Part shown: positions 105 through 21,289 of the stretch, piece by piece | How the letters are laid out: the number at the start of each line of letters is the position of its first letter | Numbering within the stretch: position 1 is the stretch's first letter | IMG/VR virus record: IMGVR_UViG_3300030103_004582 | Span: 37,590 to 64,131 of that record | DNA: 26,542 nucleotides | From: a virus | Direction: 5' to 3' (one strand) | Position numbers and translations under genes: made by a program | Notes under the pieces: generated by a model | Told to the model about the DNA's origin: nothing | The model's database searches: none | The model's input: the letters and a program-made list of their open reading frames with translations, nothing else

Positions 105-135
105 CAAATATACGAAAAAAAATGTAATTATCAAA
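105..135 (-). promoter_or_regulatory. Bacteroidota-type sigma-70 promoter (TTTG-N19-TATATTTG)
   Basis: On the minus strand TTTG (135-132) is followed by exactly 19 nt (131-113) and TATATTTG (112-105). This matches the published Bacteroides/Flavobacterium consensus of a -33 TTTG and a -7 TAnnTTTG box. The -33 box overlaps the TGA stop (133-131) of the preceding small gene. The expected transcription start lies near 97-100, giving a leader of about 20 nt before the ATG at 80. The spacer contains a run of eight T. None of the other intergenic gaps in the window contains a TAnnTTTG box on this strand. Confidence 0.7.
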
Positions 136-499
136 CTTCTAAGACATTAATAAATAATTTGTCTCTAATTGGTGCAATTAATGTTCCCGTACCGTCTAAA
201 AATTCTATAATAAATTCACCGTTAAATTTACCAACTTTTTTAGTATCCCTATTTCTCCAATTATATACAATATAATATTCGTTTTCATCTCCACCTATAT
301 CACAAGATTCACATTTTAATTCAATATCTGCCGGTGAATTGGCGATTCTTTTAACTTTATTATCTACATCATACATATTAAATTTAATAGTTGCATTTTG
401 TATTTTTTCAAAAAACTTTTTGAAATCATTTCTACCATCATTTATTAATTCCATTTTTAGTGGTGGTAAAGTACTATTTTGATTTATAAAAAATTCCAT
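131..499 (-). CDS. Small virion protein resembling BppU N-terminal (baseplate/fibre adaptor) domains
   Basis: A 122-residue protein. The second half has the pattern of the Ig-like BppU_N domain of phage baseplate upper proteins and fibre adaptors: a strand with 'TIKFNMYDVDNK' near residue 37, a core 'YYIVYNW' near 75, then 'GKFNGEFIIEFLDGTGTLIAP' and a last strand 'DKLFINVLEV'. In known proteins this fold attaches receptor-binding proteins to the baseplate; here that role is inferred. There is one CxxC (near residues 63-66) and no signal peptide or membrane segment. It starts one nucleotide after the stop of the 1842-residue fibre gene, so translation is probably coupled and the two products may act together. 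It could instead be an unrelated small beta-sandwich protein or a fibre assembly factor. Confidence 0.85.
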   Translation of the reverse strand: MEFFINQNSTLPPLKMELINDGRNDFKKFFEKIQNATIKFNMYDVDNKVKRIANSPADIELKCESCDIGGDENEYYIVYNWRNRDTKKVGKFNGEFIIEFLDGTGTLIAPIRDKLFINVLEV

Positions 500-500
500 A

Positions 501-3500
501 TTAAGTAACGATAAATTGTGACGTTATTGTTATATCATCTATTGCAATTGGTGGTTGAGATCCAACAGTACCATCATTTCTCCACCTTAACATAAATCTA
601 GCTTGTTCACCAGGAGTCCATAAAGTAGTAGGTACTGATATTGTCTCCAATTGCCAGTTACCCTCAGTTGCACCTGCCACATAACTAGTATTTAAACGAT
701 TACCGGTTCCACCACCCATTTCGTAGTCTTCAAAATCACCTTCTTCGCCATCGTCACGTGGTGTAAATGTTGTAGGTGCCAATCCAACCATTCCATAATC
801 AAACGAAGACTCACCTACACATGTCCAATAAAAGCTAACTGTTAATGCAATACAACTAGATGGGACATCAAAATCTACATACATATAAGAATTTATTTCA
901 TCTCCAGTTTCATCATACTGATACGGTGGTACACCACCAGCCCAAGTTTCATCACTTATATAAGCTGAATTACTACCAGTTCTAGAAGTGTCACTACTAA
1001 CTGTCCATATATTTTGTGGAGATCCTGCAGTAGATGATGGTTGTCTGAATACCCAACCATTCGCTACACCTAAATCACTCCAATCTTCCTCTAATAGAAT
1101 TTGTGTATCCACCACTAAAGGTTGTGCTTGTTTACCTAAACTCCATTTAGAAACTTCTAAATCAAAAGATATTAAATTAATAGTTGTGGCTTGTATATGT
1201 TCTAATCTAAAAAGAATTATATCGCCTTCATAATAATTCGATATATCAAATGTACCAACAGTGGACTGTAAAACTATATTTTCACCAAAATCAGTATCAA
1301 TTTCCACAATTTCCGCTGGATAAGTATTAAATGGTGTAACATTTTGCGGTGATCTAGGTATAGGCGTTTTACCACCATCTGAATCTGCAATAAGAACATT
1401 ACCCACCTCTACAGGTAAGAATGATAATCTCATTTCTGATGGTGTATCCTCATCACCGGTACCCGATAAAATATAAGTTATTTTTACTTTAACTCTTTGA
1501 GAAGTACTAATTCCTTGTGGTATTTTCATAAGGAAAGTACCAAAGTCACCATTAGTAGCAAATTGTGCTTCTAAAAACTGTTGTGTCCAAGTTTCTGCGC
1601 CTGTTCCATCACCAACTGTAACACTAAAATTTGCTAAGTCTGCTGCTGGATCACTCCATGTGCCCATAAATAAATTTATTTCTTCTTTATGTAGTGATCT
1701 ACCATTAAATGATAATACACCTTCTTTACTTATTGTACTACTGTCATAAATTATTTTAACTTGTTCGATAGTAGGTTTAGTTGTTCCCGTAGATATCATT
1801 CTACATCTCATCCAATAACCATTAACACCATTTATAGTCTTAGCTGACCAAGGATCATTATTTGGTTCTAAATTTGCTGAATCTTTACTAAGTTCAAAAC
1901 TAATATTTTCATTACTCTGACTTCTTAAAAATAAATCATTACCATAACTATAACCTAAATCTTCTGAGTGTATATGCCATAAATCCCTTTTCCATTCTGT
2001 ACCATTCCAATATTCAAATACGTAATCACCACCAACTTTTTTCTGTAATACATTTATATCTAACCCATAAAATTTTAGTGGTGTTGTTAAATCACTACTA
2101 ACTCTTCGTGTAGTAAATAAAATGGTAGTTCCAGTCCCCCCACTCTGAAAAGTTATAGTACTACCCTCTTTGGATTCTGCATCATCTGTAACATCAATAA
2201 AATTACCTCCATCACTAACACTACTTGCAGTATTATCTGTGGTAAATATCTTCATACCTACAGTAGAAGGTGCACCTCTACCTACATTCATTTCCGTTCC
2301 TCTTTCAGCAAACCCTAAACTCATTTGATCTAAACCAAATAAATTTTTACTTGAATTGAATACATCTGTAGATTCTTGTGTAAAATCCAAACCAAACTCT
2401 GCAGTATATGCTACTGCCGGTGGATAAATATAATTTGGTTGGTGATTAGATGTTATTCTATATGATGCATCTATACCTGTACCAGTTAAATCTACTTTTA
2501 CTGAATAAGTTACATTTTCTAATGAACCCCCTAATAAATTAATTTCTTCATAATCTCCTGATGCACTTAATGCGTTAGTTGAATTTGCTATATTAGGTGT
2601 AAATATTTTTGCCACTGGTATTACTCCTGAACTACCACCTTCAGTTCTAATTGCGTTAGTTACATTAGTGTTTCCACAATTAAACCCTACCATTTGTGCT
2701 CTACCCGCATTAGTACCACCCGAAGTGGTTACCAATAACACATTATCAATATCACCAGTAGATTGTGGTACGTGAACTCCTTCTAATGCTAAAGTACCTG
2801 AATCTACTTTTAAACAATTAGACATCCCCCCACCTTCTACTCTAATTGAGATACCTATTAATTTACCACCACCTGTTTTAAATAAACCAGTACCACTACT
2901 ACCTGCACCACCATTACCATAGAATGTAATATTGTTTGCAGTAGATGTCCCACTACTATTGGATGCAATTATACCATTTAAACTTCCTTGTGGTACATTA
3001 ATACTAAACCCATCTATAAATGAATCTTGATTTAATTCTACAATGTCTCTAGATGCGGTTGCCGGTGCTTTACCAATTATTGTCACTTCCCAACCACCTT
3101 CACTAACTAAAGAAACTCCTTGTGGTACAACTAATTCTTCTTCATCATATTCACCTGGTCTTACTATTACAGTATCACCATTTGTTGAATCATTTAATGC
3201 TTGTTCTATAGTTAAATAAGGTTTATCTTGTCTATTAGTAAGTGCAGTCGCATCATCACCAAATATAGAATCTACCCATAATACATTACCTGTATTTATA
3301 TCACCACCTCCAGTTCCTCCTGATAATGCACTTAAGTTTACACTTACTTTACCATCATCAGTTCTATCTAATACTAAAGTAGCACCACTTAGTGTACCGC
3401 CAGTAACAAATGTATTATTATCTATAGTATTTGCCGTATATGTATCAAACAATGTTGTATCTACTTTACCACTAACTATACTATCAAAATTAGTCGTAAA

Positions 3501-6029
3501 GGCGGATCCATTATTTTCATTAATCGTATATTCAGTCCCTATTAAAGTTGTGCCGGTAATGAAAGTATTATTATCTACAGTATTTGCCGTATATGTGTCA
3601 AATAATGTAGTATCTAACTTATTATTAATTTCAGTTTGAGTTGTGGAACTATACGTATCGAATAGTGAAGTATCTACTTTACCACTAACTATACTTTCAA
3701 AATTAGTCGTAAACGCAGACCCATTATTTTCATTTATAGTGTATTCAGTTCCTATTAAAGTAGTTCCAGTAATAAAAGTATTATTATCTACCGTATTTGC
3801 AGTATATGTATCGAATGTGGTAGTATCTAATTTATTGTTAATTTCTGTTTGAGTTGTGGAACTATATGTATCAAACAATGTTGTATCTACTTTACCACTA
3901 ACTATACTTTCAAAATTGGTAGTAAATGCAGATCCATTATTCTCATTTATAGTGTATTGAGTACCAACTAAGGTTGTGCCGGTAATGAAAGTATTATTAT
4001 CTACCGTATTTGCCGTATATGTATCGAATGTGCTAGTATCTAATTTATTGTTAATTTCTGTTTGTGTATTACCACTATATGTGTCAAACAATGTTGTATC
4101 TACTTTACCACTAACTATACTTTCAAAATTAGTCGTAAAGGCAGATCCATTATTCTCATTGATGGTATATTGAGTTCCTATTAAAGTTGTACCAGTAATA
4201 AAAGTATTATTATCCGAAGTATTTGCCGTATATGTATCGAATGTGGTAGTATCTAATTTATTGTTAATTTCTGTTTGAGTTGTAGAACTGTATGTATTGA
4301 ATAAAGTAGTATCTAATTTACCACTTATTAGGGTAGATAAATCTATACTATTTACATCTATACCGTTACTTTTTTCTAATATTAAATCAGTTCCCGATAA
4401 TGTACCTCCAGTTACAAACGTATCAGTTAATCCTGTAACAAATCCACAAATAGGAAACGTTGATCCACTATTAGTTCTAAATGTCACACATCCAGTATTA
4501 TTATCATATGTACCACCAGTTACATTAACATCGTTATCGGTAAATAAGGCTGCGGCGTTTGTGACATTAAATGTACCACCAGTTGTATTTGTAAATGTTA
4601 ATTGTTGTGTTCCAGCATTGGCACTACCACTATTAACAAACGTATTGTTATCTACGGTATTTGCCGTATAAGTATCGAATAGTGAAGTATCTACTTTACC
4701 ACTAACTATACTTTCAAAATTGGTAGTAAATGCAGATCCATTATTTTCATTTATAGTGTATTCAGTTCCTATTAAAGTAGTTCCAGTAATAAAAGTATTA
4801 TTATCCGAAGTATTGGCGGTATAAGTATCAAAAGTAGTAATATTTAACTTGTTGTTAATTTCAGTTTGAGTTAGTCCAGAATAAGTATTAAAAACAGTTG
4901 TATCTAACTTAGTACCTATTAACATATCAGTAATAGCACTATAACTATTAAAGGTAGTAGTATCTAATTTATTATTAATTTCAGTTTGAGTATCCCCAGT
5001 ATAAGTATCGAATAGTGAAGTATCTACTTTACCACTAACTATACTTTCAAAATTGGTAGTAAACGCAGATCCATTATTTTGATTTATAGTATACTCCGTA
5101 CCAACTAACGTTGTACCAGTAATAAAAGTATTATTATCTACAGTATTTGCCGTATATGTGTCGAATATACTAGTATCTAATTTATTGTTAATTTCAGTTT
5201 GAGTTAGTCCAGAATAAGTATTAAAAACAGTTGTATCTAACTTATTGTTAATTTCTGTTTGAGTATTAGCACTATACGTATCAAATAGCGAAGTGTCTAC
5301 TTTACCACTAACTATACTTTCAAAATTGGTAGTAAATGCAGATCCATTATTTTCGTTAATAGTATACTCCGTACCAACTAACGTTGTACCAGTAATAAAA
5401 GTATTGTTATCTACGGTGTTTGCCGTATATGTGTCAAAAGTAGTAATATTTAACTTATTATTAATCTCTGTTTGTGTATTACCACTATAAGTGTTGAAAA
5501 CAGTTGTATCTAATTTATTATTAATTTCTGTTTGAGTATTAGCACTATACGTATCGAATAGTGAAGTATCTACTTTACCACTAACAATAGGATTAAAATC
5601 AGTAGGGTAGGAAGCCCCATTATTCTCATTTATAGTGTATTGAGTACCTATTAAAGTTGTACCAGTAATAAAAGTATTTGTATCTGCAGTAAAAGAACTT
5701 AAGTCTACACTTATTTCATCATCATCTGTTCTACTTAATATTAAAGTCGCACCACTCAAAGTCGCACCACTAACAAATGTGTCACTTATTCCACTTAAAC
5801 TAACACTAAAAGGTGGAAACCCATCCGTACCAATAAAATCTATGTTTTTTGTTATATCATTATATGTACCGCCAGTAACAAAAGTATTTGTACTACCAGT
5901 TAAAAAACTAATCACTTGAGTTAACTCAATTTTAGAAGTTACATCATTTTCATTTACAGTTACCAATAAATCTTCAGGTTTTAAATTTAAATTTAAGGGT
6001 AATTGACTTATTTTTTTAGGAAATCCCAT
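501..6029 (-). CDS. Giant fibre/adhesin: tandem 71-residue repeats, pectate-lyase-like beta-helix, C-terminal MAM/cleaved-adhesin-like domain
   Basis: An 1842-residue structural protein, presumably a trimeric tail fibre. The N-terminus has the 'KISQLP' motif common at the attachment end of phage fibres. Residues ~100-880 hold eight copies of a unit beginning 'TFITGTTL.GT.YTINENNG', ending 'IVSGKVDT.LFDTY' and spaced by a variable number of ~16-residue 'TQTEINNKLDTT.FDTY' linkers. A block ('LTFTNTTGGTFNVTNAAALF', roughly 460-540) is shared with the 2046-residue fibre. From ~915 to ~1200 comes a pectate-lyase-like right-handed beta-helix, opening with 'WVDSIFGDDAT', 'PYLTIEQAL', 'GDTVIVRPGEYDEEE'. 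Residues ~1340-1420 contain the virion motif 'FEYWNGTEWK...GYWMRCRM'. The last ~195 residues resemble MAM/cleaved-adhesin jelly rolls, ending 'PPIAIDDITITS'. No catalytic residues were identified, so receptor or polysaccharide binding is inferred. The start follows a 50-nt AT-rich gap. Confidence 0.93.
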   Translation of the reverse strand: MGFPKKISQLPLNLNLKPEDLLVTVNENDVTSKIELTQVISFLTGSTNTFVTGGTYNDITKNIDFIGTDGFPPFSVSLSGISDTFVSGATLSGATLILSRTDDDEISVDLSSFTADTNTFITGTTLIGTQYTINENNGASYPTDFNPIVSGKVDTSLFDTYSANTQTEINNKLDTTVFNTYSGNTQTEINNKLNITTFDTYTANTVDNNTFITGTTLVGTEYTINENNGSAFTTNFESIVSGKVDTSLFDTYSANTQTEINNKLDTTVFNTYSGLTQTEINNKLDTSIFDTYTANTVDNNTFITGTTLVGTEYTINQNNGSAFTTNFESIVSGKVDTSLFDTYTGDTQTEINNKLDTTTFNSYSAITDMLIGTKLDTTVFNTYSGLTQTEINNKLNITTFDTYTANTSDNNTFITGTTLIGTEYTINENNGSAFTTNFESIVSGKVDTSLFDTYTANTVDNNTFVNSGSANAGTQQLTFTNTTGGTFNVTNAAALFTDNDVNVTGGTYDNNTGCVTFRTNSGSTFPICGFVTGLTDTFVTGGTLSGTDLILEKSNGIDVNSIDLSTLISGKLDTTLFNTYSSTTQTEINNKLDTTTFDTYTANTSDNNTFITGTTLIGTQYTINENNGSAFTTNFESIVSGKVDTTLFDTYSGNTQTEINNKLDTSTFDTYTANTVDNNTFITGTTLVGTQYTINENNGSAFTTNFESIVSGKVDTTLFDTYSSTTQTEINNKLDTTTFDTYTANTVDNNTFITGTTLIGTEYTINENNGSAFTTNFESIVSGKVDTSLFDTYSSTTQTEINNKLDTTLFDTYTANTVDNNTFITGTTLIGTEYTINENNGSAFTTNFDSIVSGKVDTTLFDTYTANTIDNNTFVTGGTLSGATLVLDRTDDGKVSVNLSALSGGTGGGDINTGNVLWVDSIFGDDATALTNRQDKPYLTIEQALNDSTNGDTVIVRPGEYDEEELVVPQGVSLVSEGGWEVTIIGKAPATASRDIVELNQDSFIDGFSINVPQGSLNGIIASNSSGTSTANNITFYGNGGAGSSGTGLFKTGGGKLIGISIRVEGGGMSNCLKVDSGTLALEGVHVPQSTGDIDNVLLVTTSGGTNAGRAQMVGFNCGNTNVTNAIRTEGGSSGVIPVAKIFTPNIANSTNALSASGDYEEINLLGGSLENVTYSVKVDLTGTGIDASYRITSNHQPNYIYPPAVAYTAEFGLDFTQESTDVFNSSKNLFGLDQMSLGFAERGTEMNVGRGAPSTVGMKIFTTDNTASSVSDGGNFIDVTDDAESKEGSTITFQSGGTGTTILFTTRRVSSDLTTPLKFYGLDINVLQKKVGGDYVFEYWNGTEWKRDLWHIHSEDLGYSYGNDLFLRSQSNENISFELSKDSANLEPNNDPWSAKTINGVNGYWMRCRMISTGTTKPTIEQVKIIYDSSTISKEGVLSFNGRSLHKEEINLFMGTWSDPAADLANFSVTVGDGTGAETWTQQFLEAQFATNGDFGTFLMKIPQGISTSQRVKVKITYILSGTGDEDTPSEMRLSFLPVEVGNVLIADSDGGKTPIPRSPQNVTPFNTYPAEIVEIDTDFGENIVLQSTVGTFDISNYYEGDIILFRLEHIQATTINLISFDLEVSKWSLGKQAQPLVVDTQILLEEDWSDLGVANGWVFRQPSSTAGSPQNIWTVSSDTSRTGSNSAYISDETWAGGVPPYQYDETGDEINSYMYVDFDVPSSCIALTVSFYWTCVGESSFDYGMVGLAPTTFTPRDDGEEGDFEDYEMGGGTGNRLNTSYVAGATEGNWQLETISVPTTLWTPGEQARFMLRWRNDGTVGSQPPIAIDDITITSQFIVT
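3400..5680 (-). repeat. Tandem coding repeats (~213 bp unit, eight copies) in the 1842-residue fibre
   Basis: The region encodes eight copies of the TFITGTTL...KVDT.LFDTY unit. Each is joined to the next by one to four 16-residue NKLDTT.F.TY linkers. The standard unit is about 71 residues, but copies 1-3 are longer because of extra linkers. One break between copies 4 and 5 carries a different block. Copies are nearly identical in protein but differ at many third codon positions, so they are not recent identical duplications. Confidence 0.85.
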
Positions 6030-6045
6030 CTTAATTTTCTTTTTT

Positions 6046-6061
6046 TATATAAATATGTTAA
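6046..6061 (-). promoter_or_regulatory. 16-bp motif TTAACATATTTATATA before the 1842-residue fibre gene
   Basis: This 16-mer, read on the minus strand, lies 16 nt before the ATG at 6029. It also occurs, identical, at 20448-20463 upstream of the 2046-residue fibre gene. Both sit in the larger intergenic gaps. A shared position before late structural genes suggests a phage late promoter or other control site, but it does not fit the Bacteroidota TAnnTTTG consensus. In AT-rich DNA a chance repeat is possible. Confidence 0.3.
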
Positions 6062-6079
6062 TATTCTTTATTATTCATT

Positions 6080-8074
6080 TTACACTATTAAGAAATCTTC
6101 ACCGTCTTCACTAGAAATAATATTACTATTCTCAGTTAAGAGATATTCTATCAATTCTTGTGGACAAATTCCATAATTTAAACAGTATTTTTTAAATCTA
6201 TATCTAATTGTTGTTATATCTAAACAACATTCATATAATCTAAATTTAGATATATCACCAAAGAAACTACCAGCAAAATTTTGTTGTATAATTAAATTTT
6301 CATCTAACGGGTCAGGTCCACCAATAGTATTAGTTTCTAATAACCCTTGCGTACCACCACCTAAAGAGTAATTAAATGGTACACCTTCTTGTTTTTCTCT
6401 ATATTCATATAAATCTTTAAATAAAAATTCGTCAAAATCCTCAATAGAATATTTAAGGTAACCATTAACAAAAAAGTCTAACCTCCCTTTTCGTCTAGGT
6501 ATATTATCCATTTCGTCAAATAAGTATTCTTCATATGCACAAAATCTTATAGCTAGTTGAAACCATTCATCATTAGGTATTATACCGGCTTCTGAATATT
6601 CTTCATTAACTGTTACTCCGGTAATATATTTTTCTTGTACTGTTGTACCAGTTATTTTACATGTTGGTGTGTCACAATCTATACACCAATCACCACAACC
6701 ACCAACACCTTCTTCTGCATATATTGTTCCACATAATTGACAATTACTACAATTACATGAAGAACTACAATTATCACAAGAAGTTGTAACTGTTGTAGAA
6801 GTTACTGCAGAACAAACTCCACTAACACCTAAAGATCTATACCCTATAGAACCATCTTCTTTTATTCTAAACCCTAATGCATTATCTACTATATCTGCAT
6901 TTTTATCTCTTTCGTCAATAGTAACTTTAGTTACCCCAGTAAAATAACAATCACCTTGTGGTTGGTAAACTAAAAAGGGGTTATTTAATAATTCTTCTTT
7001 AGTAATTTTAGGTGGTGGTAAAGGATAACCTGATGTGGTAGTATATCCTGTTTCCCCACTGAACACATCCCAAAATTTATTTTCTGATCTAGTACCCATA
7101 TAATAAAATAATCCTTCATTATTAGGGTATAAAGCGTTTATTGTTGTACCCGTATCTCCCGTACAGGCTTTACTATTTCTTCTCATCCAAAATTCTGCAG
7201 TCCAACCACTTTCATATCTAGTTGGTAAAATTTGGTAATTCCATGGAGTTGGTTTTTTCTCTAAATAGCATTTATATGCTTTTCTAGGGTCAGGACAACC
7301 TTTACATTCACCACCATTTTTACACCAAGAACCACACCCACCAACGTATTCTTCTTCATAAACTGTTCCACATAATTGACAATTATTATTTCCACAATTA
7401 CAATTAGTAGAACCAGGAATAAAAATAGGATTAACATTATTATTATTACAATCACAAGAAGTAGTTCCAGTACATCCACTTCCACAAGGGGGTGGACAAT
7501 TAAACCACTCCATCGGCCAAACAAACATATTGTTTGAAATATCTTTAAAGAATGTTCTATCTGATAATTTAAAAAATCCTTGATAAAAACCACCACATAA
7601 TTCTACATACCTACCTACAGTATTTGCAGAAGTAATAAATTGATAGGGATAAGTATAGGTACACCCACTAACTCTAGTAAAACAAAATTTTGTATCTGCA
7701 GATGTTATTGTAAGGGACGAACCAGTATATGTGTCGATAAATGTTAATCCTGTGGTTGATCCTGTACAATCATAAGAAATAAAACCATTATCAATACCAG
7801 TTAACCCAATATCATTTAATGTAAGTGCTGAAGTAGGTAAAGATAATTCCTCAAAACATGTATTACCAGTCCAACCCACTAAACTACACAATGAATCACC
7901 ACTAACACATTTATTATTATCAATGTCTATATCAATAATGACACATTCATCTAAAATTTCTTGATGATCTATACTACATCCACAGTCGTTACAAATAAAT
8001 AAATCCCAATAATCGGAATTACTTAATTGTAAGTTCATACAATTATTGAAATTATTTTGGTTAATATTACTCAT
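6080..8074 (-). CDS. Cysteine-rich virion protein with LamG/concanavalin A-like fold and duplicated Cys module
   Basis: A 664-residue protein with about 44 cysteines (over 6%). The C-terminal half has LamG/ConA-like strand motifs: 'SGWTAEFWMRRN' (near 290-302), 'NDEWFQLAIRF' , 'GRLDFFVNGYLKYSI' and 'GSFFGDISKFRLYECCLDI', followed by a helix ending in 'YGICPQELIEYLL'. Two related Cys modules are visible. The first has C225, C227, C232, C235, C247 and C251; the second has C440, C442, C445, C448, C460 and C464, with the shared core 'CQLCGT.Y.EE..GGCG.WC'. The second lies inside the lectin fold. They could bind metal or form disulfides after release from the cell; neither is proven. No signal peptide is present. 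It sits between two giant fibre genes with gaps of about 50 nt, so a fibre-tip or decoration lectin is the likely role. No Shine-Dalgarno is visible before the start. Confidence 0.92.
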   Translation of the reverse strand: MSNINQNNFNNCMNLQLSNSDYWDLFICNDCGCSIDHQEILDECVIIDIDIDNNKCVSGDSLCSLVGWTGNTCFEELSLPTSALTLNDIGLTGIDNGFISYDCTGSTTGLTFIDTYTGSSLTITSADTKFCFTRVSGCTYTYPYQFITSANTVGRYVELCGGFYQGFFKLSDRTFFKDISNNMFVWPMEWFNCPPPCGSGCTGTTSCDCNNNNVNPIFIPGSTNCNCGNNNCQLCGTVYEEEYVGGCGSWCKNGGECKGCPDPRKAYKCYLEKKPTPWNYQILPTRYESGWTAEFWMRRNSKACTGDTGTTINALYPNNEGLFYYMGTRSENKFWDVFSGETGYTTTSGYPLPPPKITKEELLNNPFLVYQPQGDCYFTGVTKVTIDERDKNADIVDNALGFRIKEDGSIGYRSLGVSGVCSAVTSTTVTTSCDNCSSSCNCSNCQLCGTIYAEEGVGGCGDWCIDCDTPTCKITGTTVQEKYITGVTVNEEYSEAGIIPNDEWFQLAIRFCAYEEYLFDEMDNIPRRKGRLDFFVNGYLKYSIEDFDEFLFKDLYEYREKQEGVPFNYSLGGGTQGLLETNTIGGPDPLDENLIIQQNFAGSFFGDISKFRLYECCLDITTIRYRFKKYCLNYGICPQELIEYLLTENSNIISSEDGEDFLIV

Positions 8075-8474
8075 TAATATAGTTTATTAATAAATATTAA
8101 GAAATAACAATTAAGTTTTAATTTATGCCACAAATGAAATAAGATAAGTTCCTGGTTCAGCAAATGTCATATCTATTTGATCTAATTGATGTGGTCCGGT
8201 TACTTGATTAGCCGGAATCATGCCTGTAGAATTAACCATACCTACTGCTTCGGGTAAAATAACTTTCCCTCTATTAATATGGTAAACTGTAAAAACAGGA
8301 TAAAATCTATTTAATGTATGTGTAACAGTTACTGTTTCATTAAATTGTGTTGTAGTAACCAGTGTTGTATCTCTATGTGATGCGTCCGGATCATGTTGTA
8401 ATGAATTTAAACTAACACTTAAATCACTTAATCCATTATTACGAGTGAGTCTTAAGACATTCATATTTCCTGCA

Positions 8475-14263
<5,789 letters not shown>

Positions 14264-14264
<1 letters not shown>

Positions 14265-17200
14265 TATCCAATAATTATAATTTTATATTCCCCACCTTCT
14301 TCTACATAAATATCTACACTATTATTTTGATAGTTAGATATATGATCAGGTATTATTATTTGTCCTGTTGAAATCTCAACAACTTGTACTATAACATTTT
14401 CATCTTTTAAACTATGTGTAATTGTGTTTTGTCCTGTAGTTAATGTCTTAGTTTCCACATATTTTTTACCACCACCAGTTATATTATTTATATTAGTATT
14501 TAATTGTTTAATACCTTCTACCATAAATGGTATTAAATCAACATAATTCATAGAATCTACAGTTGCTTTATTACCAGATCCATCTATATCATACTGAGTT
14601 TTACATGTTCTAACAAAAGTTTTTGCTATATTATTAACCCTTCTTTGTTCTGCAGATATAACATTTCCATCAAATAAATTATCTCTAAAATCATCTACTT
14701 TAAACCCATAATGTTTTTTTCCGGTACTACTAATTCTTGTTCTAGGGTGAAATTCGAATTGATAACCCTCTAATGCGTCTAAGAACAATATAGGATCCAC
14801 AACGTTTGGTATATCCAGAATATTAAATTTACACCTACTATCAGAAGGTAAGTCAATTATTTTACCATCTAAATCTGTACCTAAGTTAGCACCACTAACA
14901 TCAGGAATATCCTCAACAATTAAAGATTTACTATTACCTGATTTTACTATTATATTACCATCTTCTGCTTCTAAATCACCTTTTATAACTCTAGTTGTAC
15001 CAGTACTAACTTCTACTATTTCTCTACCATCTGTTTCTAATACTAATTTAGAACCAGTAGCACTGTCTGCACCAACTTTTAATTTCTTTTGGCTTTCATT
15101 ATATTTTATAAAACTTTCTTCACCAAATAAAATTCCTGGTTCGTCTGGAGTTGTAATATCTATAGTAACTAATGGTAAACCACCTTGTGTACCTATATAG
15201 ATATTACCCTGATTATACGTATTAATATTTAAAGGTGAGCATGATTCTATATTGGATACCCATAATTCACTTATACAATTTCCTGAATTAGAACCGGTTG
15301 CTGCTGACACTACCACTCCGTTAGCATCAACACCTAAATTCATTGTAGGTGTTCCATTAGAAACATCTCTAATATTTAATCTAGGTACATATACTGTATC
15401 ATTATCTGTTGTTCCTGTGATTCCAGCACCACCCAATACAACACTTCTCTGACTTTTTACTTTATTACCATTACCACCTATAACTACACTATCATTAATA
15501 GTATCATTTATACTATGATTTTTCCCACCTATTATGATACTATTTCTTATCCTACCATCACTAATAGAGTTATTATTACCACCTAAAACAATGTTATTAT
15601 CCATATATCCTAAGTTAGAAGATATAATATTATCTTCACCACCTATTATTGCATTTTGTGATTCACTAAATCCTACTGAGCTCCCTGTTAATACATTATT
15701 TTTACCTACAAAGATACCTGAAGAATCATGATCAGTAATTCTATTAGTCTCGCCCCCAGCAATCATTGAGTATCTTGATGATCCTGTTAATATGTGACTA
15801 CCTTTAATGTCATATAGAGAATTTCCTTCCCCACCTTCTTCCCAAAATCCACTAGTCGAACCACTACTGAAACCGGATATGGTAATATTGTTTCCATTAT
15901 TATTTATTAATGTTAATACGTCACCATTAAGTGTTCCACCTGTAATATCTGAGACATTACTATCTACAACAAAACCATTTGCGTCATACCCTAAAGTACC
16001 TACTGGTTCATTATCAAGTACGTCTCTAATATTTAATTGAGGAACATAAACGGTATTTGAAGTGTCTGCAGTAATATTACTACCACCCAGAATAACTGAT
16101 CTAGATGCACCATCCATATAATTATCACTACCACCTACTATAACTGATCTTGCAGCAGCCAAAAAGTGATCATTACCACCAATAATGGCTGATTTTGTAG
16201 CCTTATTTAATGTAGAATCTTCAGAAGTATAAATTCCTGCTTCATCACTATCATCTATAAGGTTATTTCTTCCACCAATTATTGAAGAGGTTTCACCATC
16301 TACTATTTCGTTGTTTATACCACCCCCAATTAATGTGTCACTTGATCCACCTTGAATAAAATTATTTAACCCACCAACAATCACACTATACTGAAGACTT
16401 CCATTATTTGCAATAATACTTGAATTAGTTGATGAAATAATTGCATCTGCCGATGCACCACTTATTATATTAGCCCCACCATTTATTATTGTAGAAGCTC
16501 TACCATCCGTAATATCATTATTAGTGAAATAACCACCTACTAATATTGCCCCAGTCGATGTCCCACTAATTGTTCCAGAATTTTGGTTAATACTTTTTAA
16601 TCCACCACTTTCTACCGCCCAAAATCCTGTTCCTGTTCCACCAGATGAGGGCTGCCAACTTGCTACCCCATCTGCGTCACATGTTAAGACATAACCATTT
16701 TGCTCTGTTCCGTCTTCAATTCTTACTGTACCATCAACATGAAATGTTTCTGTGGGCGTATCTGTATTGATTCCTACATAACCTCTTGTTGAATCTGTGG
16801 TGTCTCTACCTTGTATATGTATATCTGGTATTCCGCCATCTGCATCTTGTCCTGCATACATCCTAATATAATCTGGTAATGCATTTGCGGGATTTGAAGG
16901 TGCAGAAATAATATTTAAACCATTTTGATCGATAGAAGAATAAAGATAACCATCACCTTGTGCACCATATCCCGGAAAACTAGCCTCTGCACTACCTCTA
17001 ATCCCGAATGTAATACCACCATTTCCTGGTGTGGCAACTGACATTCTAGCAAGTTGATCTGTTGTAATCGCACTTAATTTAACATTCGCACCGCTACTTA
17101 AGTTAAGGTCTGACTCAAATATTGCCCCAGTTTCTTCCATTTTGAAGTCGCCCATAACATGTAGAGTTTTATCTACATCATTATTTGTAATATCCCCAAT

Positions 17201-20200
17201 ACCAACCCTTTGGTTATTTGTTAATACCATTACTTCACTTAGTGGTCCACCTGTAGGATAAGTATAAAATTGTAAATTACCTGATACACCACCCCCGAAA
17301 GTCGTACCTTCAATTCTAGCAAAAGGTGTAGATACACCCTCATTATCAAAATCAATTACAGAGTTACTCGTAGAAACTGCACTTAGTGTTAGTGAAGCAT
17401 TATCAACTGGATTTGATATTAATACATCACCTCTAACATCTAATTTTTCTAATGGGTTATCTGTACCCATTCCTGTGTTACCATCTACTATTAAATCACT
17501 ATCTAATTGAGTATTTCCAGTAACTCTTAATTCACCGTTAATGGTTAACCCATTCATTTCATCTATGATTGCAGTTTGAGGTGTACTACCACTTATACCT
17601 ATTGCAAATTCATTTTCTGTTGGATCGTATGTATAACCTGTAATACCTGAATTTCCACCACCACTACCTGTAGTTCCAGTAACCACAAATCCATTAGCAT
17701 CTAATCCTAAATTAATTAATGGTGTGCCAGCACCAACAGTTCCAATATTTAAATTAGGTACATAAACTGTGTCAGTTGTACCACCACTAATCTTCCTACC
17801 CCCAAGTATAACAGATCTTTGTGTACCATTAATTATTTTATGTTGTGAACCACCAATAATAGCATTCTCAGTACCACCACTAATAATATTAACAGAACCA
17901 CCTAAAATTGACGAAGCGGTTGCATTACTTATAAGGGAATTTGAAGCATTATATATCGATGAATTAGTACAACTACCAGTAATCTCACTTCCTGTAGATG
18001 ATAAAATAAGAGAATCTCTACTATCAGACAATGTGTTAAATCTACCACCAATAATTGTGGAACGCTGAGGAGATCCACCATTTGTAGTATCTTGTATAGT
18101 ATTTTGATTACCTCCAATAATAGACGAATACATTAAAGATCCACCACTTTCTTCAATAATATTTAACTCATTACCACCCAATATAATATTTGAACTACCT
18201 CCACTTATAGTAGATGATACAGTACTTAACATTGCTGAATTAAATGAATTATTTATATCATTTCCAACACCACCCGCAATTAATGCCCTTTCAGAATCAC
18301 TTACAGTATCCTCAATATTATTATCACTACCACCAATAATAACACCATAATCTATAGTTCCTTTAATATTAGAATTACTTGTAGATATTATAGCAGATGT
18401 AGTACCACCACTAATTGTATTACTATTACCATTTATTATAGTTGAAGTTAAACTGTCATAAATATCGTTAGTGTTAAAGTAACCCCCCACTAATACTGAA
18501 CCGGTTGACGTACCATTGATTGTTCCTGCATTTTGATTAATACTTTTTAATCCACCATTTTCTATATCCCAATAAACTGTACCACCAGTTGTACTACCAG
18601 AGGAAGGTTGCCAACTTGCTACCCCATCTGCGTCACAAGTTAATACATAACCAAGTTGTTCTGTGCCATCTTCAATTCTTACCGTCCCATCAACATGAAA
18701 TGTTTCTGTGGGTGTATCGGTATTGATTCCTACATTACCTCTTGAAGAATCTGTGGTATTTTTTCCTTGAATGTGTATATCAGGAACACCACCATCTGCA
18801 TCTTGTCCTGCATACATCCTAATATAATCTGGTAATGTACCTGCAGGAGATGAAGGTGCAGAAATAATATTTAAACCGTTTTGGTCAATGGAAGAATAAA
18901 GATAACCGTCACCTTGTGCGCCATATCCAGGAAAACTAGCCTCTGTACTACCTCTAACCCCAAATGTAATACCACCCTCTCCCGGATTAGAAACTGCTAT
19001 TCTAGCAAGTTGATTTGTTGTACCCGCACTTAATCTAACAAGTGCGTTACCACTGTTAAGGTCTGAATCGAATGTTCCACCAGGTTCTTCCATTTTGAAG
19101 TCGCCCATAACATGTAATTTCTCCGTTGGGTCTATTGTACCAATACCTACACTACCACTATTAGTTATAGTTACTTTGGTATCTGCAGTAGTACTAAAAG
19201 TAGTACCATCATTTCTTGTCGCAAACTTAATACTAGGATCGGTAGTTGAGTTAACACCTATAACTAAATCGTTTATCGAATCAGGTGAAATACCAATATT
19301 AGAGGTTGAAATACCACCATCTTGTGATAGTAAAATATCTGCAGTATCCGTATCATCTACGTCATTTATGTCTGCTTCTATTTTAATTTTAGCATTTGTA
19401 GTGGATTTTATATGTAACTTTTCTGTTGGTGTATCAGTTCCTATTCCTGTACTACCACTAACAATTAAATCATTAGTTACTGTTAAACCACTAACTTCTA
19501 AAATTTGTGAATCAAAAGAAGTTCCACCACTTAAACCTATAGTAAAAGTATTACTAGCGGGATTATAAGAATATCCGGTTATAGGTGTGCTAGCCGCCCC
19601 ACTAGAAGGAAGTTGGTTAGCATTAATATATTTTACTGTTGCAGTATCATTATCATATATAAGTAATTTATCGTTTGCACCATCTACTGTTATACCAGTT
19701 CCATTAGTCGCCGCCATAATAACTGAATCCGCACCTGAATAGTCTACCGCGATTAAAACTCTATCGGTAGCAGCAACCCCTATGTCAATACCTGTAGAAC
19801 CCTCAAAAGTAAGTGTATCACCAGAAGTTATAGTAAAAGGTGTACCGTTATCTCCGGCTACTGTGAATGACGTTTTACCACTTAATGATGATAAATCAAC
19901 ATTAAAAGTTCCTCCAGTTGTGTTGGTAAATGTTATTTCGGATGTACTACTATCATATGTACCACCAGATACAAAAGTATTAGTTAATCCTGTAACAAAA
20001 CCACATATATCAAAAGTAGAACCACTATTTGTAGCAAACGTAACACATCCAGTGTTTACATCATAAGTTCCACCGGTTACATTAATATCGTTATCAGTAA
20101 ATAAAGCTGCCGCATTTGTCACATTAAATGTTCCGCCAGTTGTATTTGTGAATGTTAATTGTTGAGTGGTTACATCTGCAGAACCACTATTAACAAAAAC

Positions 20201-20404
20201 ATCAGTTGATGATGCACCACTTAAAGTAGAAGAATCTCTATATTCTACATTACCACTAGTAGTATTTCTTACTAAAATTTCTGTTGCTGAGTTATTATTA
20301 ACAGGTGTGTTAATAATATTGAATGTTTGCCCTGAAAGATTTCCCTCAACTAAGGAATTACCTTTAGATACAAACCCATTTTTTATTATAAATTCGTGTG
20401 CCAT
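14264..20404 (-). CDS. Tail fibre with beta-roll IIGG repeats and S74 intramolecular chaperone
   Basis: A 2046-residue fibre. Residues 1-160 carry short beta repeats ('LTFTNTTGGTFNVTNAAALF'). Several 'GIGT..P.EKLH' units follow (from ~310), and a large segment (~435-605) is duplicated at ~1085-1270. Three blocks of 'S.IIGG..N.I' repeats (~641-878, ~1291-1441, ~1535-1661) each end in a 'VYVP.LNI..V...LG.DANGFVV' module. Near the C-terminus is a peptidase S74 chaperone: 'SDSRCKFNILDI' with S1854 and K1859 in the Ser-x4-Lys spacing of the endosialidase autocleavage dyad, then 'FLDALEGYQFEFHPRT', 'HYGFKVDDF' and 'VDLIPFMVEGIKQLN'. In that family the chaperone trimerises the fibre and cuts itself off before the Ser. 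Here an extra ~60-residue beta domain follows. The start lies after a 78-nt gap; GGAAAGGG about 14-21 nt before the ATG might act as a weak ribosome-binding site. Confidence 0.93.
16540..17165 (-). repeat. Direct duplication within the 2046-residue fibre gene, copy B
   Basis: This encodes the segment from 'VMGDFKMEETG' through 'FPGYGAQGDGYLYSSIDQ', 'RMYAGQDADGG' and 'FHVDGTVRIEDGTEQ' to the 'SINQN.GTI.GTSTG' motif. It matches copy A at 18500-19120 over roughly 600 bp, with an offset near 1955 bp and only small indels and scattered differences. Confidence 0.85.
18500..19120 (-). repeat. Direct duplication within the 2046-residue fibre gene, copy A
   Basis: Partner of 16540-17165. The encoded peptides are nearly the same: 'MGDFKMEEPG', 'RIAVSNPGEGGITFG', 'NTDTPTETFHVDGTV', 'GYVLTCDADGVASWQPSSG'. 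Short stretches of DNA are identical, for example TTTTGAAGTCGCCCATAACA on the plus strand in both copies. Confidence 0.85.
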
Positions 20405-20482: not shown

Positions 20483-21289
20483 TTAATAAATTCGAGATGG
20501 GTGTTTAAATCTACTTCTCATTGCAACATAATTTCTTAATATTTCCTCTTGATTTAAACATATATTATACATAGATGCTGACGCAATTTTACCACTAAAT
20601 CTTTGTCCACCAGAACTACCCCCCCTAGCAACATCTGGTTCATTTGTACCAGCAATTCTACCCGATATCACCGGCACATCACTTCTAGTTTCTACTAAAT
20701 CAGCGTTAACATATATTTTAATTGTACTAGTACCATCACCATTATCAGAACATGTAGTAACTACATAATTAAAATCTAAGGGGTAATTAGTTTCAGTATA
20801 TGCCGTATAAGTACCATATCCTTGTTGTGTACCATCAGTAATTGCCATTTGAATAGTGTTATTAAATATGTACAACCAACTCCTATTAATGTTTCCTCCA
20901 CCATTAGCAGTACCCGGACAAAATATTGTAGAACCTAAAGGACCACTTCTATTATGATTTATCCATGTAGTATAGGTTAATTCTGAAGGCATATTTACCA
21001 TAGGTTTTCCTATCGATTGAAAATAATAATCACTACCATCAAAAAAGAAAGATTTTATATTATTATCCGTGGTCACTACTATTTGTGAGGTAGTTGCAGA
21101 TGGTGGTATTCCCCCAGGCCCTTGATCTGTGTTTTCTTCGAATTCTAATCTTCTAAAGTTTGTTCCTGTTTCTTTTTTACCAAGATTATTAACTACCCCA
21201 TCATTTATATTGTATGAATTAGTATTTTGTGCGTCAACATAAAATATTAAACCGTCAGTTACTATTTTGGGTGAATGAAAAATTGCCAT
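20483..21289 (-). CDS. LamG/concanavalin A-like virion lectin
   Basis: A 268-residue protein of the LamG-like type frequent in marine phage virions. It opens with 'SPKIVTDGLIFYVDAQNTNSYN', the usual first strand and 'GL..Y.DA.N..SY' signature. Next come 'SFFFDGSDYY', 'TYTTWIN' (about residue 104), 'STIKIYVNADLVETRS', and the closing 'FSGKIASASMYNICLNQEEI' with 'NYVAMRSRF' near the C-terminus. The family binds sugars or mediates protein contacts at virion surfaces; its ligand here is unknown. No signal peptide or membrane segment is seen. It starts one nucleotide after the stop of the 752-residue fibre gene, which suggests translational coupling and a joint function. Its length is close to a single full lectin domain. 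Confidence 0.93.
   Translation of the reverse strand: MAIFHSPKIVTDGLIFYVDAQNTNSYNINDGVVNNLGKKETGTNFRRLEFEENTDQGPGGIPPSATTSQIVVTTDNNIKSFFFDGSDYYFQSIGKPMVNMPSELTYTTWINHNRSGPLGSTIFCPGTANGGGNINRSWLYIFNNTIQMAITDGTQQGYGTYTAYTETNYPLDFNYVVTTCSDNGDGTSTIKIYVNADLVETRSDVPVISGRIAGTNEPDVARGGSSGGQRFSGKIASASMYNICLNQEEILRNYVAMRSRFKHPSRIY

Follow-up and report, generated by a model that had tools for sequence, protein, structure and literature searches.

Genes and features at the locus

The window, i.e., the whole stretch of DNA that was analyzed, comprises 26,542 nucleotides of the IMG/VR virus record IMGVR_UViG_3300030103_004582. The following features are considered here.

131-499, minus strand: 122-aa protein, conserved downstream; its neighbours are the fibre genes on one side and the DNA polymerase gene on the other
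501-6029, minus strand: downstream fibre protein, 1842 aa, repetitive
6080-8074, minus strand: LamG-fold virion-type protein, 664 aa with 44 Cys (open frame, homologues, predicted jelly roll)
6167-7969 (residues ~36-636), minus strand: predicted LamG-like jelly roll, interrupted by both Cys inserts (structural-alignment ranges on the model)
6659-6814 (residues 421-472), minus strand: Cys-rich part of insert I2, at a modelled LamG beta-hairpin tip
6683-6742 (core residues 445-464), minus strand: module copy 2, CQLCGTIYAEEGVGGCGDWC, present in 6/67 distinct proteins
6905-6982 (residues 365-390), minus strand: single NPFLVY unit of the protein, by anchor pattern
7268-7498 (residues 193-269), minus strand: Cys-rich part of insert I1, between model strands 164-171 and 290-299
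7322-7381 (core residues 232-251), minus strand: module copy 1, CQLCGTVYEEEYVGGCGSWC, present in 7/67 distinct proteins
8475-14264, minus strand: upstream tail-fibre protein with collagen-like repeats, 1929 aa (PHROG tail protein/tail fibre, best 1.3e-30)

Cysteine accounts for 44 of the 664 residues encoded at 6080-8074 (6.63%), compared with 0-1.71% in the eight other long open reading frames of the window that were counted. The first-pass annotation, made from the letters alone, had estimated about 44 cysteines and described a doubled cysteine motif. Both descriptions are exact, and the motif reads CNC-x4-CQLCGTVYEEEYVGGCGSWC in one copy and CNC-x2-CQLCGTIYAEEGVGGCGDWC in the other, both on the minus strand within this frame. 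The share of cysteine reaches 14/78 residues (18%) in I1 and 11/53 (21%) in I2, neither of which contains histidine, and low-complexity sequence of Gly, Asn, Ser and Thr surrounds the modules. The element YxEE, earlier given as a constant of the module, is replaced by PLDNGT in L014, by YATEF in copy 2 of L018 and by FEKDG in L016. Across the copies the constant part is C-Q-[LV]-C-x-T-x(6-7)-G-G-C-G-x-[WQ]-C. Its four core cysteines are invariant in 13/13 copies found, a constancy that is partly by construction because the search pattern itself required them. When the whole inserts of all 67 distinct proteins were viewed by eye, no diverged copy clearly lacking one core cysteine was seen.

A profile scan of IMG/VR returned 79 loci, which together with the window give 80 proteins, 67 of them distinct (window included). 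The relatives lie on viral contigs that are nearly all metagenomic as far as their names show. L018 comes from the same contig as L090 (QCKH01000012.1), whose record bears the name of a single-cell genome, Prochlorococcus sp. AG-409-L21; this contig is phage DNA within that assembly, and the name is not necessarily that of the host.

The window's own record (99,870 bases) contains a match to the T4-type capsid protein gp23 (6.7e-63) and a terminase, and PHROG matches in the window and its flanking stretches include a tail sheath, a DNA polymerase and tail fibres. The gene order is LamG gene, fibre genes, 122-aa protein and DNA polymerase. Of the eight window-clade loci (L011-L018), seven have the downstream fibre gene (501-6029 in the window) 44-54 bases after the LamG gene. 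A homologue of the 122-aa protein lies downstream on the same strand in 30/79 loci and a DNA polymerase match lies downstream in 35/79, some of these on the other strand, with limited flanks ending too soon in many loci for both counts. Because the genome is T4-like and the neighbours are structural genes, it is likely that the LamG protein is located in the virion.

At other loci, matches to pieces of the long fibre proteins 501-6029 and 14264-20404 (both minus strand) lie to both sides of the LamG gene, which suggests shuffling of the fibre cluster between relatives. The window also contains a second, ordinary LamG protein with 3 Cys at 20483-21289 (minus strand; Laminin_G_3, 5.2e-12).

Predicted fold and searches for known domains

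An AlphaFold model of the window protein was built on an alignment of 58 of the 67 distinct sequences (L030, L045, L060, L072, L078, L085, L086, L087 and L089 were left out) and reached a pLDDT of 62 and a pTM of 0.65. Against solved structures, this model aligned with domain 4 of AbnA (5ho2) at Z 15.8 over 200 residues (3.0 Å) and with chain p of the cyanopodophage Pan3 tailspike entry (9vyh_p) at Z 15.6 over 225 residues (3.5 Å), and the best 50 structural matches all had Z above 13. The top match in BFVD, at E 4.6e-24, was to an uncharacterized protein from an uncultured Caudovirales phage, and the third was to a virion structural protein of S-PM2 (Q5GQW3). A jelly roll of ~200-225 residues and a phage structural setting are common to the window protein and the LamG/ConA-like virion proteins (5ho2, 9vyh chain p, Q5GQW3). 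The model of L073, a relative with a different loop pair described below, was better than that of the window protein (pLDDT 77.6, pTM 0.78; 51-sequence alignment) and also presents a LamG/ConA-like jelly roll, with a best Z of 15.1.

With E values up to 1 allowed, the window protein matched no Pfam family, LamG models included, so a sequence relation to Pfam LamG is not detectable; Laminin_G_2 was matched weakly by 2/58 homologues (best E 0.061). The initial description as a LamG-fold phage protein agrees with the Z values of about 15 to jelly rolls, and on the model the protein is LamG-like by predicted fold and virion-type, not a member of the Pfam LamG family. The jelly roll is the confident part of the model, and the module inserts have pLDDT below 50; in the L073 model, too, the loops are of low confidence. 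The insert bearing copy 1 is placed between strands 164-171 and 290-299, and that bearing copy 2 caps a hairpin of strands 410-431 and 473-493. One copy had been proposed to lie inside the lectin fold; this holds for copy 2, but not for the idea that it is the only one. Since the modelled jelly roll spans residues ~36-636, both copies are predicted to interrupt it.

The module had also been called unrecognised, and it stays so: profile and sequence searches with the inserts alone matched no described domain. Searches of the whole protein, the alignment and the excised inserts against Pfam, PHROGs, NCBIfam and PDB sequences gave nothing usable, and the module inserts matched no described zinc-binding family at E up to 10. 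For a 46-residue piece of the module, nine exendin entries (E 0.14-0.31) and one other (0.93) were returned from PDB and were rejected as chance. The match to phrog_21730 (E 0.022) was set aside as an identity for the module, as it covers residues 304-337, outside both copies. The window protein was unmatched in the phage and plasmid collections, as were L028 and the 2046-aa fibre in the phage collection.

The excised tandem loop pair of L028 matched Zn_ribbon_3 (0.058) and FhuF_C (2Fe-2S, PF11575; 7.9e-5), the latter being short, the sum of two weak stretches and not recovered with whole proteins under an E limit of 0.1. Through these two weak stretches, the tandem loops of L028:4001-5716 resemble the 2Fe-2S end of FhuF.

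Concerted change of paired cysteine loops

Several cysteines of the window protein are widely shared among the 67 distinct proteins, i.e., C160 (67), C421 (66), C304 (64), C44 and C616 (56 each) and C376 (52), and cysteine content in the family spans 1.5-7.7%. Copy 1 of the module is present in seven distinct proteins and copy 2 in six, with 60/67 lacking the module. Six proteins carry both copies, L016 carries copy 1 only and L015 neither. On a quick tree of the core, with inserts excluded and SH-aLRT as support, L016 falls outside the other seven rows of the window clade (99%), L014 (both copies) branches next, and L015 is nested among rows with both copies (97%). The simplest history would be that copy 1 came first and copy 2 later, and that L015 then lost both. 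Shorter Cys-bearing segments occupy the places of I1 and I2 in the sister group (L019-L026), and the other 52 distinct proteins have no I1 (9 residues stand there) and a short I2.

The module was searched for in other genes as well. In the window's own record it was found only in the frame 6080-8074, as its two copies plus one weak stretch. In IMG/VR, 33 stretches fitted the pattern and 8 were confirmed, at 6 loci, all on contigs with a module in the LamG gene; none lay in another gene. The module as a mobile DNA element was therefore rejected. Judging from its distribution, the module is a young, dispensable insert. Its cysteines might have been freely replaced in homologues, and this is true in part: 60/67 proteins lack the module and L015 lost both copies, while the core cysteines are invariant in the 13 copies that remain. 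An essential metal site is disfavoured because of these absences. It has to be considered whether such inserts are neutral expansions of surface loops, made and erased by slippage and recombination without function. The low complexity near the modules, the loss in L015 and the variable length would suit this reading, but the Cys core stays constant in 13 copies though the spacer changes, and different lineages each keep a Cys pair, making it quite unlikely.

Besides their history of gain and loss, the two copies change together. L011 shares 97% core identity with the window protein, and its copy 1 reads GTIYAEEGVGGCG, like its copy 2. At the seven sites of this stretch where the two copies of L012 differ, copy 1 of L011 has the bases of copy 2 in all seven (7/7, counted by eye from codons). 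This tract measures 27-44 nt; outside it, the CCT codon that flanks it and the sequence upstream are still of the copy-1 type. In L014, both copies read CQVCNTPLDNGTGGCGPWC and 2/57 bases differ. For L011 and L014, comparison of the bases shows homogenisation of the module copies at the DNA level. The modules of L013 and L018 have no codon excess (10/16 and 8/13, respectively). Because the copies lie ~190 residues apart with unique sequence between them, tandem slippage is an unfit explanation and copying between the two sites fits.

The first-pass annotation had missed this evolution in concert and also a second kind of Cys-loop pair that occurs in most of the family. In 47/67 distinct proteins there are two NPFLIY-type anchors, each followed by a loop that bears cysteine in most. 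In the 15 proteins of the window clade and its sister group, the single anchor lacks such a loop; the pattern used picks out one anchor in L056 and none in four rows. Both the modules and the tandem NPFLIY loops contain CxxC; other resemblance was unconvincing by eye, and the two appear unrelated.

The 33 of the 47 two-anchor proteins with short spacing were analyzed with fixed 30-residue loops. Identity between the two loops of one protein (A-B) was 0.58, as against 0.33 (A-A) and 0.38 (B-B) between proteins, and core identity was 58%. In only 9/33 was each of the two loops more similar to its own partner than to its nearest orthologue. In an earlier parse (44 of the 47 pairs), which shortened some loops such as those of L033, L066 and L079, the own partner ranked first in 15/44, and none of 10000 permutations reached this. 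The number of cysteines was equal in 28/33 pairs (shuffle mean 13.3, none of 10000 as high). Change in cysteine number was also compared over tree-independent pairs, which are few and rest on a quick tree. At a difference of at least 3 Cys, 5-7 of seven pairs changed in the same direction and none in the opposite one (median p 0.031). With the difference set at 2 or more, the same direction was taken by 2-3 of five pairs and the opposite one by none. At 1 or more, the other loop did not differ in three pairs.

Selection alone, with both loops binding the same partner and no exchange of DNA, could account for the equal Cys numbers in 28/33 pairs. Silent sites are shared too, however. The 18 most alike tandem pairs use the same codon at 331/412 identical residues, as against 237.6 expected (z 10.2) from each gene's own codon use with positions treated as independent, and the tract of L011 ends sharply. 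The selection-alone reading is already strained under the codon data and is hardly credible. Intragenic gene conversion as the process that would keep the two loops alike is instead strongly supported at the base level. Homogenisation is not universal: the 29 other tandem pairs share codons at about expectation (203/337 against 191.4), as do the modules of L013 and L018, and the loop pairs of L042, L044, L050 and L038 do not match at all. As a single event, the first loop of L071 is now like its second when compared with L047 (93% core identity).

A variable segment common to two sites of one gene and flanked by repeats is thus found in L011, L014 and L071 versus L047. These flanks are NCQxC and GGCGxWC for the modules and NPFLIYGR and TxC-[FY]-x-G for the tandem loops. 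Across the family, the aligned homologues show that pairs have been gained, lost and replaced.

We regard it as somewhat probable that the window protein is a LamG-fold adhesin or fibre-associated protein whose paired, Cys-braced loops diverge between phages and are kept matched by intragenic gene conversion. The jelly roll would act as a scaffold that shows Cys-braced surface loops as a matched pair, made up of the module in I1 and the module in I2 in the window lineage and of the tandem pair after the NPFLIY anchors in most of the family. The short conserved flanks would permit short conversion tracts between the two sites. A change in the loop at one site would then be copied to the other, so that the pair stays alike and diverges between phages. 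The loops are probably exposed and lineage-specific contact surfaces, touching a receptor or a neighbouring subunit. Spatial nearness, pseudo-symmetry or two like contacts would all suffice as a reason for two like loops.

Chemistry of the loops and comparison with known systems

From the cysteine spacing, zinc or Fe-S binding, or else disulfides formed after lysis, had been suggested at first. The core C-x2-C-x(10-11)-C-x3-C is a putative metal site, most likely for zinc held by four thiolates, with about an even chance. Since CxxC is enriched in the window protein (7 versus 2.5 expected from 1000 shuffles), CC doublets are rarer (1 versus 2.9) and the core has four constant cysteines, a tetrathiolate site would be suited. 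That these core cysteines form disulfides after release instead is a substantial possibility, if short of even.

More broadly, the loops as a whole may be braced by disulfides, with cysteines free in the cytoplasm and paired after lysis, giving stable exposed loops without metal. Virions act in oxidising water, which agrees with pairing. Tandem pairs with exactly one Cys per loop (L052, L053, L057, L070, L071, L076 and L079) would suit a bond between loops, and CC doublets are common in L016 (9 versus 3.7 in shuffles). On the other hand, the CC and CxxC counts of the window protein better suit metal knuckles, and the three cysteines carried by most single tandem loops would leave one unpaired within the loop. 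Disulfide-braced loops are to be entertained only tentatively. Total cysteine parity was considered as a sign of complete pairing and discarded as uninformative, because totals per protein are both odd and even.

A further alternative is metal cargo, brought into the virion by the Cys-rich inserts, comparable to the Trojan horse hypothesis. The high Cys share of I1 and I2 and their lack of His, together with 18 Cys in 71 residues of L016, are in line with this, and HxH iron sites have been reported in tail fibres (PMC11705849). HxH is impossible here, with 1 His in the whole window protein. In addition, cargo would be lineage-bound, because Cys content varies from 1.5 to 7.7% and pairs are lost in relatives. 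We consider metal cargo very unlikely. The HxH iron-binding fibres, described for T4 gp37 and Alteromonas phage R22Y, are nevertheless the nearest metal precedent, differing in that Cys takes the place of His, another protein is concerned and the metal is putative (PMC11705849).

The reading of matched loops kept alike by conversion can be extended to a stronger form: phage LamG adhesins would rewrite matched metal-binding Cys-loop pairs together by conversion, always with two like contact points, at pair sites that differ by lineage. In this general form it is rather doubtful.

Hypervariable adhesin loops help set phage host range. To our knowledge, such loops are usually discussed as varying singly, and the paired loops are a novel form of them. 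In the open-licence PMC literature, no paper was found that describes a phage LamG protein with matched Cys loops or with gene conversion, which is weak evidence of novelty. For T2-type phages, the tail-fibre-tip adhesin gp38 bears hypervariable loops between conserved glycine-rich motifs and binds receptors, as described in the portions of PMC12892980 cited here. This hypervariable-loop picture is functionally the closest to the window family. The fold of gp38 is a poly-glycine II sandwich, whereas the model of the window protein is a jelly roll; Cys-rich matched pairs are not described in those portions (PMC12892980).

Mechanistically, the closest parallel to the homogenised copies is domain movement (DOMO) in HsdS, where sequence is moved from one site of a gene to another, in the layout x-(variable)-y-x-(variable)-y (PMC3077401). 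Movement in HsdS shuffles target recognition domains and thereby, it seems from the cited part of that work, specificity. The two loops of the window family, in contrast, tend to match each other; those of the window lineage are separated by ~190 residues.

Here, loops that are far apart on a single chain match in their DNA and yet change between phages, and the LamG family occurs on contigs from many metagenomes. Should the loops touch a receptor or each other, a two-point contact would be changed in one step; if they hold metal, their thiolate sites would join the debate on metals in phage tails.

Two further observations concern the tail-gene region. The tail sheath protein at L100:7859-10681 (minus strand) has 940 aa, and the best sheath profile, of 496 positions, spans it nearly end to end, so that the protein must hold large insertions. 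In L101 (G000:C1:64132-84131), the stretch 3937-17121 (plus strand) contains three PHROG matches of glycosyltransferase type and two to nucleotide-sugar epimerases, a cluster that adjoins the fibre genes and places phage-borne glycan genes beside tail genes.
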